From the NCBI RefSeq assembly GCF_025153525.1, contig NZ_JANZNR010000007.1:62001-126000 (forward strand): 64,000 nt of DNA, given 5' to 3'. Each line of letters starts with the position of its first letter. Positions within the stretch are counted from its first letter, which is position 1. Origin of the DNA: Psychroserpens sp. SPM9. GTDB taxonomy: Bacteria; Bacteroidota; Bacteroidia; Flavobacteriales; Flavobacteriaceae. A program made the translations under genes and the position numbers. A model generated the notes under the pieces. The model ran no database searches and had not been told where the DNA came from. It saw only the letters and a program-made list of their open reading frames with translations. Below are positions 16,014-45,570 of this stretch, piece after piece.

Positions 16014-16090
16014 GGGCGTTACCACAAGGGTCAGGCTTTCGGCAGTCGCTCTCTTTTGAGGAGCTCCAACAAAGCCTCAATCCTTAACGC
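16014..16090 (-). repeat. GCGTTA...TAACGC dispersed repeat, copy B
   Basis: Read on the minus strand: GCGTTAAGGATTGAGGC, then GGAGCTCCTC, GAGAGCGACTGCCGAAAGCC, TGACCCTTGTGGTAACGCCC. Same blocks and order as copies at 1227, 20628 and 35807. It lies in the trpE-trpG gap in the orientation opposite to transcription. Confidence 0.85.
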
Positions 16091-16129
16091 AACGCAACAC
16101 TAAAACAAACACAAGTTTAATTAATAAAA

Positions 16130-16147
16130 TTCCCACTTTCATGGGAA
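16130..16147. repeat. TTCCCA...TGGGAA hairpin upstream of trpG
   Basis: TTCCCA / TGGGAA stem with loop CTTTCA, ending six bases before the trpG ATG. A closely related hairpin with the same AGTTTAATTAA lead-in lies before trpD at 16789. Confidence 0.75.
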
Positions 16148-16153
16148 CTGAAC

Positions 16154-19294: not shown

Positions 19295-19369
19295 GTCATG
19301 CTAAACTTATTTATTCGTAAATATCTTTCCCTATTAAGATATTCTTGAATCTTTGATTTTAGCATCTCA
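19295..19369. repeat. Long-form GTCATGCT...AGCATCTCA palindromic repeat before trpB
   Basis: Outer arms GTCATGCT and AGCATCTCA enclose an inner inverted repeat (ATTCGTAAATATC and GATATTCTTGAAT). The same long form occurs at 20837-20918; short forms lack the inner part. It lies in the trpF-trpB gap, which otherwise shows no gene. Confidence 0.75.
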
Positions 19370-19439: not shown

Positions 19440-20621
19440 ATGACATACAACATCAACGACAAAGGCTATTACGGTGAATTTGGAGGCGCATATATTCCAG
19501 AAATGCTCTATCCAAACGTCGAAGAATTACGCCAGAACTATCTCAAAATAATGGCCGAACCTTCTTTTAAAAAAGAATTTGATCAACTCTTAAAAGATTA
19601 TGTAGGACGTCCTTCGCCTCTCTATTTCGCCAAACGATTAAGCAACAAATACAACACCAAAATTTATTTGAAGCGTGAAGATTTAAACCATACAGGTGCG
19701 CATAAGGTCAATAATACGATCGGACAAATTTTAATGGCAAAACGTTTAGGAAAAACCCGAATCATAGCCGAAACTGGCGCTGGACAACACGGCGTAGCAA
19801 CTGCAACAGTCTGTGCGCTAATGGGCATGCAATGTATTGTATATATGGGAGAAATTGATATTGCGCGTCAGGCACCCAATGTGGCTCGCATGAAAATGCT
19901 GGGCACTGAAGTCCGACCAGCACTTTCAGGTAGTCGGACATTAAAAGATGCTACCAATGAAGCCATTCGCGACTGGATTAATAATCCTGTTGATACCCAT
20001 TATATTATTGGAAGCGTTGTTGGACCGCATCCTTATCCTGATATGGTTGCGAGGTTTCAATCGGTGGTTTCCGAAGAAATTCAGTGGCAACTCAAAGACA
20101 AAGAAGGCACTACAAAACCTAATTATGTCATAGCCTGTGTTGGTGGTGGCAGCAATGCCGCAGGTGCGTTTTATCATTATCTGGACGATACAGAGGTGAA
20201 TCTTATAGCAGTGGAAGCAGCTGGTAAAGGGATTGATTCTGGTGAAAGCGCTGCTACCTCAGCCTTAGGTCGTGAAGGTATTATTCACGGAAGTAAAACA
20301 CTGTTGATGCAGACCAACGACGGACAAATTACAGAGCCCTACTCTATTTCGGCGGGCTTAGATTATCCTGGAGTTGGCCCAATGCATGCACACTTATATA
20401 CATCTGGTCGTGCCGAATTCATCTCAATTACCGATGATGAAGCGATGACTGCTGGTTTAGAGTTGAGTCAGCTAGAAGGGATTATTCCTGCGATAGAAAG
20501 TTCTCATGCCTTTGCGGTTTTGGCTCAAAAAAAGTTTCAACCTGAAGATATTGTAATTATGAATCTTTCAGGTCGTGGTGATAAAGATTTACAAAACTAT
20601 ATCGATTATTTTAAACTGTAG
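19440..20621 (+). CDS. trpB: Tryptophan synthase beta chain
   Basis: A 393-residue PLP enzyme. The PLP lysine is in HTGAHKVNNTIGQ (Lys near residue 87); the catalytic AETGAGQHGVA loop and the phosphate-binding GGGSNAAG are present. It condenses indole with serine to tryptophan in complex with TrpA. It is separated from trpA by 890 bp holding repeats and a GIY-YIG gene, which is unusual, since these two genes usually adjoin and products form one complex. Confidence 0.96.
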   Translation: MTYNINDKGYYGEFGGAYIPEMLYPNVEELRQNYLKIMAEPSFKKEFDQLLKDYVGRPSPLYFAKRLSNKYNTKIYLKREDLNHTGAHKVNNTIGQILMAKRLGKTRIIAETGAGQHGVATATVCALMGMQCIVYMGEIDIARQAPNVARMKMLGTEVRPALSGSRTLKDATNEAIRDWINNPVDTHYIIGSVVGPHPYPDMVARFQSVVSEEIQWQLKDKEGTTKPNYVIACVGGGSNAAGAFYHYLDDTEVNLIAVEAAGKGIDSGESAATSALGREGIIHGSKTLLMQTNDGQITEPYSISAGLDYPGVGPMHAHLYTSGRAEFISITDDEAMTAGLELSQLEGIIPAIESSHAFAVLAQKKFQPEDIVIMNLSGRGDKDLQNYIDYFKL

Positions 20622-20627
20622 CAGGAT

Positions 20628-20723
20628 GGCGTTACCACAAGGGCCAGGCCTGCCTGTCGGCAGACAGGCTTTCAAGGCTCGCTATCAAAGATGAGCTCAA
20701 ATAAACCTTTCAATCCTTAACGC
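20628..20723 (-). repeat. GCGTTA...TAACGC dispersed repeat, copy C, with a nested palindrome
   Basis: Ends GGCGTTACCACAAGGG and CAATCCTTAACGC match copy B in the same orientation. Inside lies an extra perfect palindromic run around CCTGTCGGCAGACAGG (about 20649-20669) absent from the other three copies, so one repeat seems to have been inserted into or expanded within another. It starts seven bases after the trpB stop. Confidence 0.82.
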
Positions 20724-20785
20724 AAAAAAAATACTAATCTAAACCTCAAACAAACTCAGAATAACAAATAATAAAAATCAATTAC

Positions 20786-21077
20786 GTCATGCTGGACCTT
20801 GAACCAATTCAAAATAACAAAAAAACCAACCAAGCACGTCATGCTGAATTTATTTATTCATAAATATCCATTTTAGCTTAAGGTATTCATGAATCTTTGA
20901 TTTCAGCATCTCACTAGAAATAAAAAAACAATCAATTGCGTCATGCTGAACTCGTTTCAGCATCTCACTAGAAAAAGAACAACAATAAGTACTAATCTTA
21001 ACCTTAAAAAAATCAAGAATAGTAAATAGAAACCAACCAAACGCGTCATGCTGAATTTATTTCAGCATCTCACTAGA
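20786..21077. repeat. Array of GTCATGCTGAA...TTCAGCATCTCACTAGA palindromes
   Basis: A partial copy at 20786, a long form at 20837-20918, and two short 33-bp forms at 20940-20972 and 21045-21077. Short forms are GTCATGCTGAA, six to seven bases, TTCAGCATCTCACTAGA. Linkers are AT-rich and partly repeated (ACTCAGAATAAC, AACCAACCAA). The array fills the gap between copy C and the GIY-YIG gene; no other gene is seen there. Confidence 0.85.
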
Positions 21078-21084
21078 AAAGAAA

Positions 21085-21363
21085 ATGAAAAGCAGTTACA
21101 TTTATATCATGACCAATACCTACAGAACAACATTCTATGTTGGTGTAACATCTGATTTAACCAAAAGAGTAACTGAACATCAAAACGGAACTGGCTCTGA
21201 ATTCACAAAAAAGTACAATCTAAAAGATTTAATATATTTTGAAGAATTCAGTGCTATTGAACAAGCTATAGCTAGAGAAAAACAAATTAAAAACTGGAAG
21301 AAAGAATGGAAACTAAATTTAATAAAAGAGAAAAATCCGAATCTTAAGACTTTAATCATCTAA
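21085..21363 (+). CDS. Small GIY-YIG-domain nuclease
   Basis: A 92-residue single-domain protein. The motif pair is YIYIMTN and YVGVTS (positions about 5-24), followed by catalytic Arg in LTKRVTEH and Glu in QAIAREKQIKNWKK, as in the UvrC-type/YhbQ-like GIY-YIG family. It should cut DNA, but target is unknown. It starts eight bases after one palindrome and ends two bases before another, and lies between trpB and trpA although unrelated to tryptophan. The setting suggests a cassette that arrived with its repeats. Confidence 0.88.
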   Translation: MKSSYIYIMTNTYRTTFYVGVTSDLTKRVTEHQNGTGSEFTKKYNLKDLIYFEEFSAIEQAIAREKQIKNWKKEWKLNLIKEKNPNLKTLII

Positions 21364-21364
21364 T

Positions 21365-21392
21365 GAGACCCTGAAACAAGTTCAGGGTGACG
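21365..21392. repeat. CCCTGAAACAAGTTCAGGG palindrome after the GIY-YIG gene
   Basis: GAGACCCTGAAACAAG then TTCAGGGTGACG: stem CCCTGAA / TTCAGGG. It begins two bases after the nuclease stop and may act as its terminator-like end as well as being a repeat. Confidence 0.78.
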
Positions 21393-21436
21393 ACTCGTTG
21401 TATCCAATCGTCATACTGAACCTTAAACAAACTCAG

Positions 21437-21494
21437 AATAACAAAAAAACCAACCAAGCACGTCATGCTGAATTTATTTCAGCATCTCACTAGA
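21437..21494. repeat. Direct repeat plus short palindrome before trpA
   Basis: 21437-21479 repeats 20813-20854 almost exactly (AATAAC, A run, CCAACCAAGCACGTCATGCT, GAATTTATTT; one A more). Its right part is a short-form palindrome at 21462-21494 ending TTCAGCATCTCACTAGA. Together the two copies bracket the GIY-YIG gene at about 620 bp spacing. Confidence 0.8.
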
Positions 21495-21511
21495 GAAGAA
21501 AACGAAAAACC

Positions 21512-22282
21512 ATGAACAGAATAAATAAAAAACTACAAGAAGACAAAAAGCTACTCTCCATATACTTTTCAGCGGGATATCCAACCCTAAACGATACCGT
21601 TAGCATTATCCAAAATCTTGAAAAAAGCGGAGTCGATATGATAGAAATCGGCCTGCCATTTAGCGATCCATTAGCCGATGGCCCAACCATTCAGGCGAGT
21701 TCTACGCAAGCCTTAAAAAACGGCATGACCACCGAAATACTTTTCAATCAGTTAAAAGACATTCGCAAAACCGTTTCAATTCCGTTGATTATTATGGGCT
21801 ATTTTAATCCGATCCTCCAATATGGTGTGGAAGCTTTTTGTAAAACCTGTAAGGAGATTGGTATTGACGGACTCATCATACCCGATTTGCCTATCGATGT
21901 CTACAACGAGCAGTATAAATCCACTTTTGAAACCTATGGTTTGATTAATGTTTTTTTAATCACACCTCAAACCTCAGTAGAGCGCATAAACTTTATTGAT
22001 TCTATTTCTAACGGATTTATTTACATGGTAAGCTCAGCAAGTGTCACAGGAAGCAGTAGTGGTTTTGGAGAAACCCAAACTTCATATTTCAAACGTATTG
22101 CCGGTATGAATCTAAAGAACCCTCAAATTGTTGGCTTCGGAATTTCAAATCACGAGACCTTTTCGCAAGCCACGCAATACGCAAAAGGCGCCATTATTGG
22201 CAGTGCCTTCATTACATTTTTATCAAACCATGGTATTAAAGATATTAGTAAATTTACCCAGGCTATTTTAAACAACATCTAA
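21512..22282 (+). CDS. trpA: Tryptophan synthase alpha chain
   Basis: A 256-residue TIM barrel with GYPTLNDTVSII, the catalytic Glu in MIEIGLPFSDPLADGPTIQ (in parts), GLIIPDLPID with the catalytic Asp, and GFGISNHET. It splits indole-glycerol phosphate and channels indole to TrpB. Last trp gene; its stop overlaps the next ATG by one base. Confidence 0.95.
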   Translation: MNRINKKLQEDKKLLSIYFSAGYPTLNDTVSIIQNLEKSGVDMIEIGLPFSDPLADGPTIQASSTQALKNGMTTEILFNQLKDIRKTVSIPLIIMGYFNPILQYGVEAFCKTCKEIGIDGLIIPDLPIDVYNEQYKSTFETYGLINVFLITPQTSVERINFIDSISNGFIYMVSSASVTGSSSGFGETQTSYFKRIAGMNLKNPQIVGFGISNHETFSQATQYAKGAIIGSAFITFLSNHGIKDISKFTQAILNNI

Positions 22283-35806: not shown

Positions 35807-35900
35807 GCGTTAAGGATGGAGCACTTGTGGAGCTCCTCGAAGAGAGCGACGTGTGAGAGCCTGACCATGACCGAGCCTGAGCACGTGCATGGTAACGCCC
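35807..35900 (+). repeat. GCGTTA...TAACGC dispersed repeat, copy D
   Basis: GCGTTAAGGATGGAGC, GTGGAGCTCCTCGAAGAG, AGCGACGTGTGAGAGCCTGACC, then an extra GAGCCTGAGCACGTGCATG before GGTAACGCCC. The extra part makes this copy longer than A and B. It sits between yaaA and the RluD-type gene; the gap shows nothing else. Confidence 0.85.
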
Positions 35901-45542: not shown

Positions 45543-45570
45543 GAGATCCTGAAACAAGTTCAGGTTGACG
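45543..45570. repeat. CCTGAAACAAGTTCAGG palindrome between alaS and the GSCFA gene
   Basis: GAGATCCTGAAACAAG then TTCAGGTTGACG, differing from the 21365 copy at only two positions in 28. Confidence 0.8.

Follow-up and report, generated by a model that had tools for sequence, protein, structure and literature searches.

A small GIY-YIG nuclease gene at the trpB–trpA junction of Psychroserpens sp. SPM9 and its proposed cognate CGTC-type palindromic repeats

Between trpB and trpA of Psychroserpens sp. SPM9 (genome G000) lies a small nuclease gene surrounded by palindromic repeats. In the window, by which we mean the whole stretch of 64,000 nucleotides that was analysed, the upstream neighbour is an open reading frame of 393 amino acids (19440–20621, +), presumably trpB as judged from its sequence and the operon order, and the downstream neighbour is trpA, an open reading frame of 256 amino acids (21512–22282, +). 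Orthologues of trpB adjoin trpA in congeners, and trpA orthologues are present in 11 of 11 congeners. The gene in the gap (21085–21363, +) encodes a GIY-YIG protein of 92 amino acids (PF01541, E = 1.3e-15), in agreement with the first-pass annotation of this DNA. The pattern GTCATNCTGAAYTTRTTTCAGNATCT, allowing up to three mismatches, matches five times in the window, where 100 dinucleotide shuffles give an expectation of 0. Three of these palindromes, recognized by pattern match and by folding, are an intact copy with its GTC end on the left (20940–20965, +), a copy immediately 5' of the nuclease gene (21045–21070, +) and a copy immediately 3' of it with the GTC end outward (21366–21391, −). 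Pattern matching further places an intact copy ahead of trpA (21462–21487, +) and a dispersed one elsewhere in the window (45544–45569, −). The downstream palindrome begins two bases past the stop codon, as annotated before. The upstream one is present too, but the distance of eight bases given for it was loose: its last base, 21070, lies 14 bases ahead of the ATG, or about ten when its conserved tail is counted. A direct repeat flanking the whole, previously described as 42 bp long, is real but comprises 71 nt, with a left copy at 20785–20855 (+) that contains partial palindromes and a right copy at 21409–21479 (+) that matches it at 92%. The gene-less copy formerly reported at 19295 is indeed a palindrome (19295–19369, +; repeat comparison and folding), but a degenerate version with a long loop, and comparison within the repeat family relates it to a palindrome of the same form at 20838–20913 (+).

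Two further repeats were seen in this region. A second repeat family, which starts with GGCGTTACC and ends with CCTTAACGC, occurs in the window at 16015–16095, 20628–20723 and 35891–35899 and also in the trpB–trpA gaps of G045, G249, G250 and G256. A small hairpin, TTCCCACTTTCATGGGAA, is found in the trp operon at 16131–16150 of the window and resembles the flank of a nuclease gene at another locus (L124).

The palindrome is an oriented element present in about 50 copies in the genome of strain SPM9 (52–53; 52 with up to three mismatches), where the reversed control pattern gives 0 matches. A set of 222 contexts, selected with a stem filter and including 15 that were read on both strands, yields the consensus cGTCA[T/C]n-CTGAAC-TTG-TTTCAG-n[A/G]TCtCAt, outside of which conservation ends sharply. 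A GTC tag marks one side and a TCTCA tail the other. At the three tag positions before the stem the frequencies in these contexts are 0.82 for G, 0.85 for T and 0.79 for C, and the preceding base is C (0.52) or T (0.28). Folded as single-stranded DNA, the intact palindromes of the window form an 8-bp stem with a 5-nt loop, a stability that was equalled in 0, 1 and 0 of 200 shuffles. The first stem pair is A-T; the second is T-A in 196, C-G in 60 and A-T in 14 of 274 contexts. Complementarity at the two variable stem pairs is kept in 256 and 271 of the 274 contexts, whereas shuffling gives 96 and 157 on average and 121 and 173 at most, and this covariation indicates that the hairpin is under selection. 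Palindromes at most 90 bp apart form 21 pairs in +− and 20 in −+ arrangement (non-zero distance), and 10 pairs have the same orientation. The CGTC repeats defined by Di Nocera et al. 2013 (PMC3733652) have a CGTC or TGTC tag, a stem of 8–9 bp with A-T first pairs, a loop of 4–5 and a short unpaired tail that is mostly CCA. In tag, stem, loop, opposite-orientation dimers and dispersal the palindromes described here agree with this super-family of REPs, and they fit into it.

The protein scores 57.9 bits against PF01541, whose gathering cut-off is 22.6, and thus belongs to the GIY-YIG superfamily. Across 27 sequences, residues Y7, Y18, G20, R28, H32, E65 and N84 are invariant, among them what we take to be the GIY-YIG catalytic set of tyrosines, glycine, arginine, glutamate and asparagine. 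An AlphaFold2 model built from the 27 sequences has a pLDDT of 91.3, and the folds closest to it are those of UPF0213 (1zg2, Foldseek E = 3.6e-4), Slx1 (6seh, TM 0.62, rmsd 2.3) and the N-domain of UvrC; by sequence, the nuclease matches 1ywl (E = 2.3e-6). Slx1 itself requires Slx4 and cuts branched DNA with no known sequence preference, unlike what is proposed here for the nuclease. An Slx1-like fold would suit an enzyme acting on hairpins or branched DNA. Strain SPM9 has one close copy of the nuclease and, in addition, one weak match of 30%. Libraries of defence and phage proteins returned weak matches only, and none of 32 viral-contig stretches that match a pattern encodes a relative (tblastn).

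Nuclease and palindrome go together in related genomes. In a survey of 249 genomes of the family (nuclease at E ≤ 1e-10, palindrome with at most two mismatches, control hits zero), 140 genomes have a nuclease match and 107 have the palindrome. The palindrome is present in 90 of the 140 genomes with a nuclease match and in 17 of the 109 without one (Fisher 3e-15, kinship uncorrected), so that it is by no means equally common in genomes lacking the gene. Where the nuclease is at least 57% identical to the one studied here (the A clade), 28 of 29 genomes carry the palindrome. The flanks of 110 genes of the family, 30 loci and 80 further places among the matches listed, were read for hairpins with a GTCA end. 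Among these matches, such a hairpin lies within 220 bp of the gene at 65 of the 110 loci and on both sides at 49, while shuffled flanks give 0–5 (both sides 0) and flanks 600–820 bp away give 8 (both sides 0). A similar test on named relatives, the best 80 of 460 and including seven loci that repeat ones among the 110, found hairpins at 66 of 80 loci and on both sides at 44; controls 500–1400 bp away gave 8/75, 5/74, 7/72 and 5/69. Within these best 80 of 460, each of the 12 named phyla has at least one palindrome-flanked locus, with 7 of 11 in Pseudomonadota and 43 of 53 in Bacteroidota. The arrangement is also oriented, with the tags outward: upstream of the gene the closest element has + orientation at 52 of 69 loci, and downstream of it the closest one has − orientation at 54 of 72.

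Beyond adjacency, the type of palindrome follows the lineage of the nuclease. According to their stems, the palindromes were sorted into classes A (CTGAA), B (TTCCTGC), C (CCGCA/CTGCG), D (TGCGCA) and E (TTTCCGC/TTCCCTC), and rarer classes exist. The nuclease tree comprises 104 of the 110 proteins, six short pieces being excluded; it rests on few columns, and 47 of its 101 inner branches are open. On this tree the palindrome class changes 13 times, the minimum possible being 8, while shuffled labels change 53.5 times on average and in none of 200 shuffles as rarely as 13 times. The tree was built without the palindromes, but the classes were drawn up after the flanks had been viewed, which weakens the test. 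For 22 of the 104 genes no class was assigned; most of them turned out by eye to have palindromes of the form GTCAT...ATC with a bulge or a long loop, which escape the class search, and these genes were kept unclassed. One genome can contain several nucleases that each stand next to a different class, as with A, B, C and G in G141, and the matching is therefore not merely a matter of genome-wide abundance. Together with the flanking data, the class-tree matching bears out the earlier suggestion that nuclease and palindromes belong together. At the level of whole genomes the specificity is imperfect. In the 23 genomes with only A-clade nucleases the medians are 13 A and 0 B palindromes; in the 13 with only B-clade nucleases they are 7 A and 9 B palindromes, and 11 of these 13 contain A palindromes. 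This comparison of two clades for two types of palindrome is only partly clean, since most genomes hold several nucleases. In window-type elements the tail is CTCA, and in the B and C types it is CCA.

The 110 loci of the family, among the matches listed, fall into 60 neighbourhoods, the largest being bioD–bioA with 15 loci, trpB–trpA with 10 and hisC–hisB with 8. The bioD–bioA assignment (cluster L039–L057) was checked in two members, with a family scan in one, and the hisC–hisB assignment (cluster L059) in one member. A GIY-YIG gene stands between trpB and trpA in 12 distinct loci, of which eight belong to A-type relatives and four (L118, L125, L129 and L134) to an unrelated nuclease lineage of the E type. 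Two lineages have thus taken the same junction, and the trpB–trpA junction is a recurrent landing place. Retention at one junction, in the 12 trp loci and in other lineages at bioD–bioA and hisC–hisB, suggests that the gene itself rarely moves. The idea of a mobile gene cassette, raised in the first-pass annotation, therefore finds no support or is at least weakened: the gene mostly stays at fixed operon junctions, and it is the palindromes that scatter.

In the trp loci the gene is co-directional with the operon. Of the 110 loci, 90 were classified and 20 left unclassified; at 85 of the 90 the upstream neighbour runs in the same direction as the gene, and at none of them do both neighbours point away from it. 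Promoter and terminator scans of 20600–21530 found no promoter-like and no terminator-like site. The nuclease is probably transcribed from the host operon. Co-directional upstream genes would also allow the hairpins to act in transcripts, and the association could then be a coincidence in which the palindromes are RNA or DNA hairpins of operon gaps, such as terminators or mRNA ends, among which a small gene has lodged. We regard this as very improbable, given the lack of a terminator-like site in the scanned interval, the scarcity of elements in the far flanks and the correspondence of palindrome class and nuclease clade, which holds even inside one genome.

The trpB–trpA junction was read in 11 congeners, and gene-free junctions exist among them. 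In G254 trpB and trpA are 4 bp apart, and in G251 a gap of 71 bp has no palindrome. The gap of G252 contains one palindrome, those of G253 and G256 a gene-less inverted pair, and those of G249 and G250 one degenerate palindrome together with another repeat. Orthologous junctions do not always hold the gene, and neither of the two refuting outcomes named in the first-pass annotation occurred. The gene is present at this junction in strain SPM9 and in G045, whose nuclease is 95% identical and where the intact upstream palindromes are lost. In G255 and G257 (L188 and L190) the order of the trp genes has changed: another gene precedes trpA, and trpB is not beside it. At another site of the SPM9 genome, a gene-less inverted pair is part of an extra segment of about 205 bp that is absent in 8 of 8 readable congeners, G045 included, where the gap is 3–8 bp or the matches overlap; readable means that both flanks were matched, and two further congeners were unreadable. 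From both sites we conclude that palindrome pairs come and go. Two GIY-YIG genes in G257 (G257:C1:1404877 and 1405288; L174 and L178) are 411 bp apart and have the same flanking palindromes, apparently the result of tandem copying of an entire cassette. In G250, a GIY-YIG match (G250:C1:411964-412203) falls within an open frame of 598 amino acids near GTCAGGTCGAGCGCAGTCGAGACC-like hairpins, a possible GIY-YIG fusion.

An insertion sequence or MITE that duplicates its target site was considered and rejected, as duplications at the ends of 42 inverted pairs are not in excess: five pairs have at least four matching bases, and about 4.3 are expected from shuffling. For the same reason, a 6-base repeat seen by eye beside the trp pair of G253 was not counted as evidence. 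Palindromes also persist in congeners without a nuclease above 49% identity, with 40 copies in G253, 14 in G250, 10 in G256, 8 in G249, 7 each in G252 and G255 and 1 in G254, compared with 53 in strain SPM9 and 58 in G045. The GIY-YIG genes that are present in G252 and G253 carry other flanking hairpins. Repeats left over after loss of the enzyme are known for REPs, and we interpret the palindromes of these congeners as such leftovers, although another agent could also suffice for them.

A junction that carries the gene in strain SPM9 and G045 but an inverted pair without it in G253 and G256 also brings to mind a free-standing homing endonuclease, which spreads by cutting gene-less alleles and for which the palindromes would be the targets. 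I-TevI is among the weak fold matches, and a group I intron endonuclease model matches weakly (23 bits, where the cut-off is 56). However, the palindromes on both sides of the window's gene are intact, so that a gene-bearing allele would probably not be immune, and the targets would be dozens of dispersed palindromes instead of one allele. We therefore consider homing improbable.

We propose that the locus is made up of a small endonuclease of the GIY-YIG type together with cognate palindromes of the CGTC-tagged REP kind, and we give this reading a probability of roughly three in four. Every lineage of the nuclease would recognize a stem-loop of its own, tagged with GTC on the outer side. The substrate is most likely the palindrome folded from single-stranded DNA, as it arises in replication, repair or transformation, and the enzyme would nick it near the tag. 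Repair or recombination of the ends could then cause palindromes, single or as inverted pairs, to be lost, copied and spread to intergenic sites, while the gene would remain inside an outward-tagged pair at an operon junction and be transcribed with the host operon. Adjacency, orientation, lineage-specific matching, covariation, dispersal and the differences in presence between species are observed; that the enzyme binds and cleaves the palindromes and that they are copied is inferred.

An alternative role without mobilisation is that of a genome guard. Here the enzyme would cleave single-stranded DNA where the repeats lie and so limit or shape natural transformation and recombination, while the repeats would owe their spread to selection or to some other process. 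A GIY-YIG nuclease of this kind, Ssn, was reportedly described in Neisseria meningitidis in 2025. Long retention of the gene at operon junctions, as at bioD–bioA with its 15 loci, is what would be expected of a useful gene, and the absence of target-site duplications points in the same direction. Taken alone, however, guarding leaves unexplained why gene-less pairs appear at new sites and why one genome has several nuclease–palindrome pairs. The guard reading seems rather unlikely to us, but it is compatible with the cognate endonuclease reading that we prefer.

Among known systems, the closest in principle is that of REPs or REPINs and RAYT proteins, as was suspected when the locus was first annotated; the likeness in principle and the difference in nuclease fold are both supported. 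In both systems one nuclease gene accompanies many dispersed palindromes with a conserved unpaired tag, inverted pairs occur, the nuclease gene is flanked by its own repeats and there is no target-site duplication. RAYT genes are, moreover, largely immobile, much like the GIY-YIG gene here. In contrast to RAYTs, which are Y1 HUH proteins similar to IS200/IS605 transposases, the present enzyme has the hydrolytic GIY-YIG fold and is no HUH or catalytic tyrosine transposase, and the tag is GTC, not GTAG. The resemblance in build and dispersal to RAYT-type REPs might suggest that a Y1 or other transposase moves the palindromes, with the GIY-YIG gene as a passenger. This is highly improbable, since the RAYT profile PF01797 found no match in strain SPM9 or G253 in spite of about 50 and 40 palindrome copies, the tag is GTC instead of GTAG, and repeats of the CGTC type show no association with transposase genes according to PMC3733652.

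A second comparison concerns the Ssn nucleases. A 2025 study in Nature Communications is said to have found that these GIY-YIG enzymes of Neisseria cut single-stranded DNA at repeated NTS sequences and modulate transformation, and to have named many relatives, reportedly widespread and with matching specificities. A small GIY-YIG protein and a repeated cognate sequence are common to both systems; our data on operon junctions, outward-tagged pairs and presence or absence, in contrast, come from Bacteroidota, and there are 0 Neisseria loci among the named ones (the best 80 of 460). A literature search for GIY-YIG in connection with these repeats, or for the sequence, returned nothing relevant. 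The earlier remark that such a system had not been worked out for GIY-YIG genes in flavobacteria thus stands as far as that search goes, but the Neisseria work reportedly rests on the same principle. In view of that work, the association of nuclease and repeat as such is probably already known in principle; the present analysis adds its link with CGTC repeats, the operon cassette with outward-facing tags, the correspondence of nuclease lineage and palindrome in Bacteroidota and the empty sites.

The third comparison is with the CGTC repeats themselves. PMC3733652 divides REPs into two large classes of bacterial palindromic repeats: the GTAG class, served by RAYT transposases, and the CGTC class, for which a dedicated transposase is apparently lacking and which is not tied to transposase genes; dRS3 of Neisseria is listed there as CGTC-1. 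The enzyme that makes or moves the CGTC repeats is left open and, as that paper suggests, may have died out; the term GIY-YIG has 0 occurrences in the paper. Our palindromes resemble these repeats in the end tag, the stem and the loop, and likewise in opposite-orientation dimers, many heterodimers, dispersed intergenic copies and several families per genome. The short unpaired tail agrees in part, being CCA in the B and C types and CTCA in the window's type. A difference is that no enzyme is given there whereas here each type accompanies a GIY-YIG lineage. A candidate enzyme for the CGTC REPs thus still adjoins the repeats in many phyla, in lineage-matched pairs, and the GIY-YIG family is the best candidate for their partner. 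More tentatively, and at odds that we would put somewhat short of even, small GIY-YIG nucleases may supply the dedicated enzyme that the CGTC super-family as a whole has seemed to lack and form a second, independently evolved REP-mobilising machinery in 12 or more phyla, with nuclease and palindrome co-diversifying, the gene kept at biosynthetic operon junctions and the gene-less inverted pairs as non-autonomous offspring. If this is true, the REP lifestyle would have arisen twice, on unrelated nuclease folds, and the CGTC side of it would offer a large natural set of nucleases whose targets can be read from the flanking DNA.
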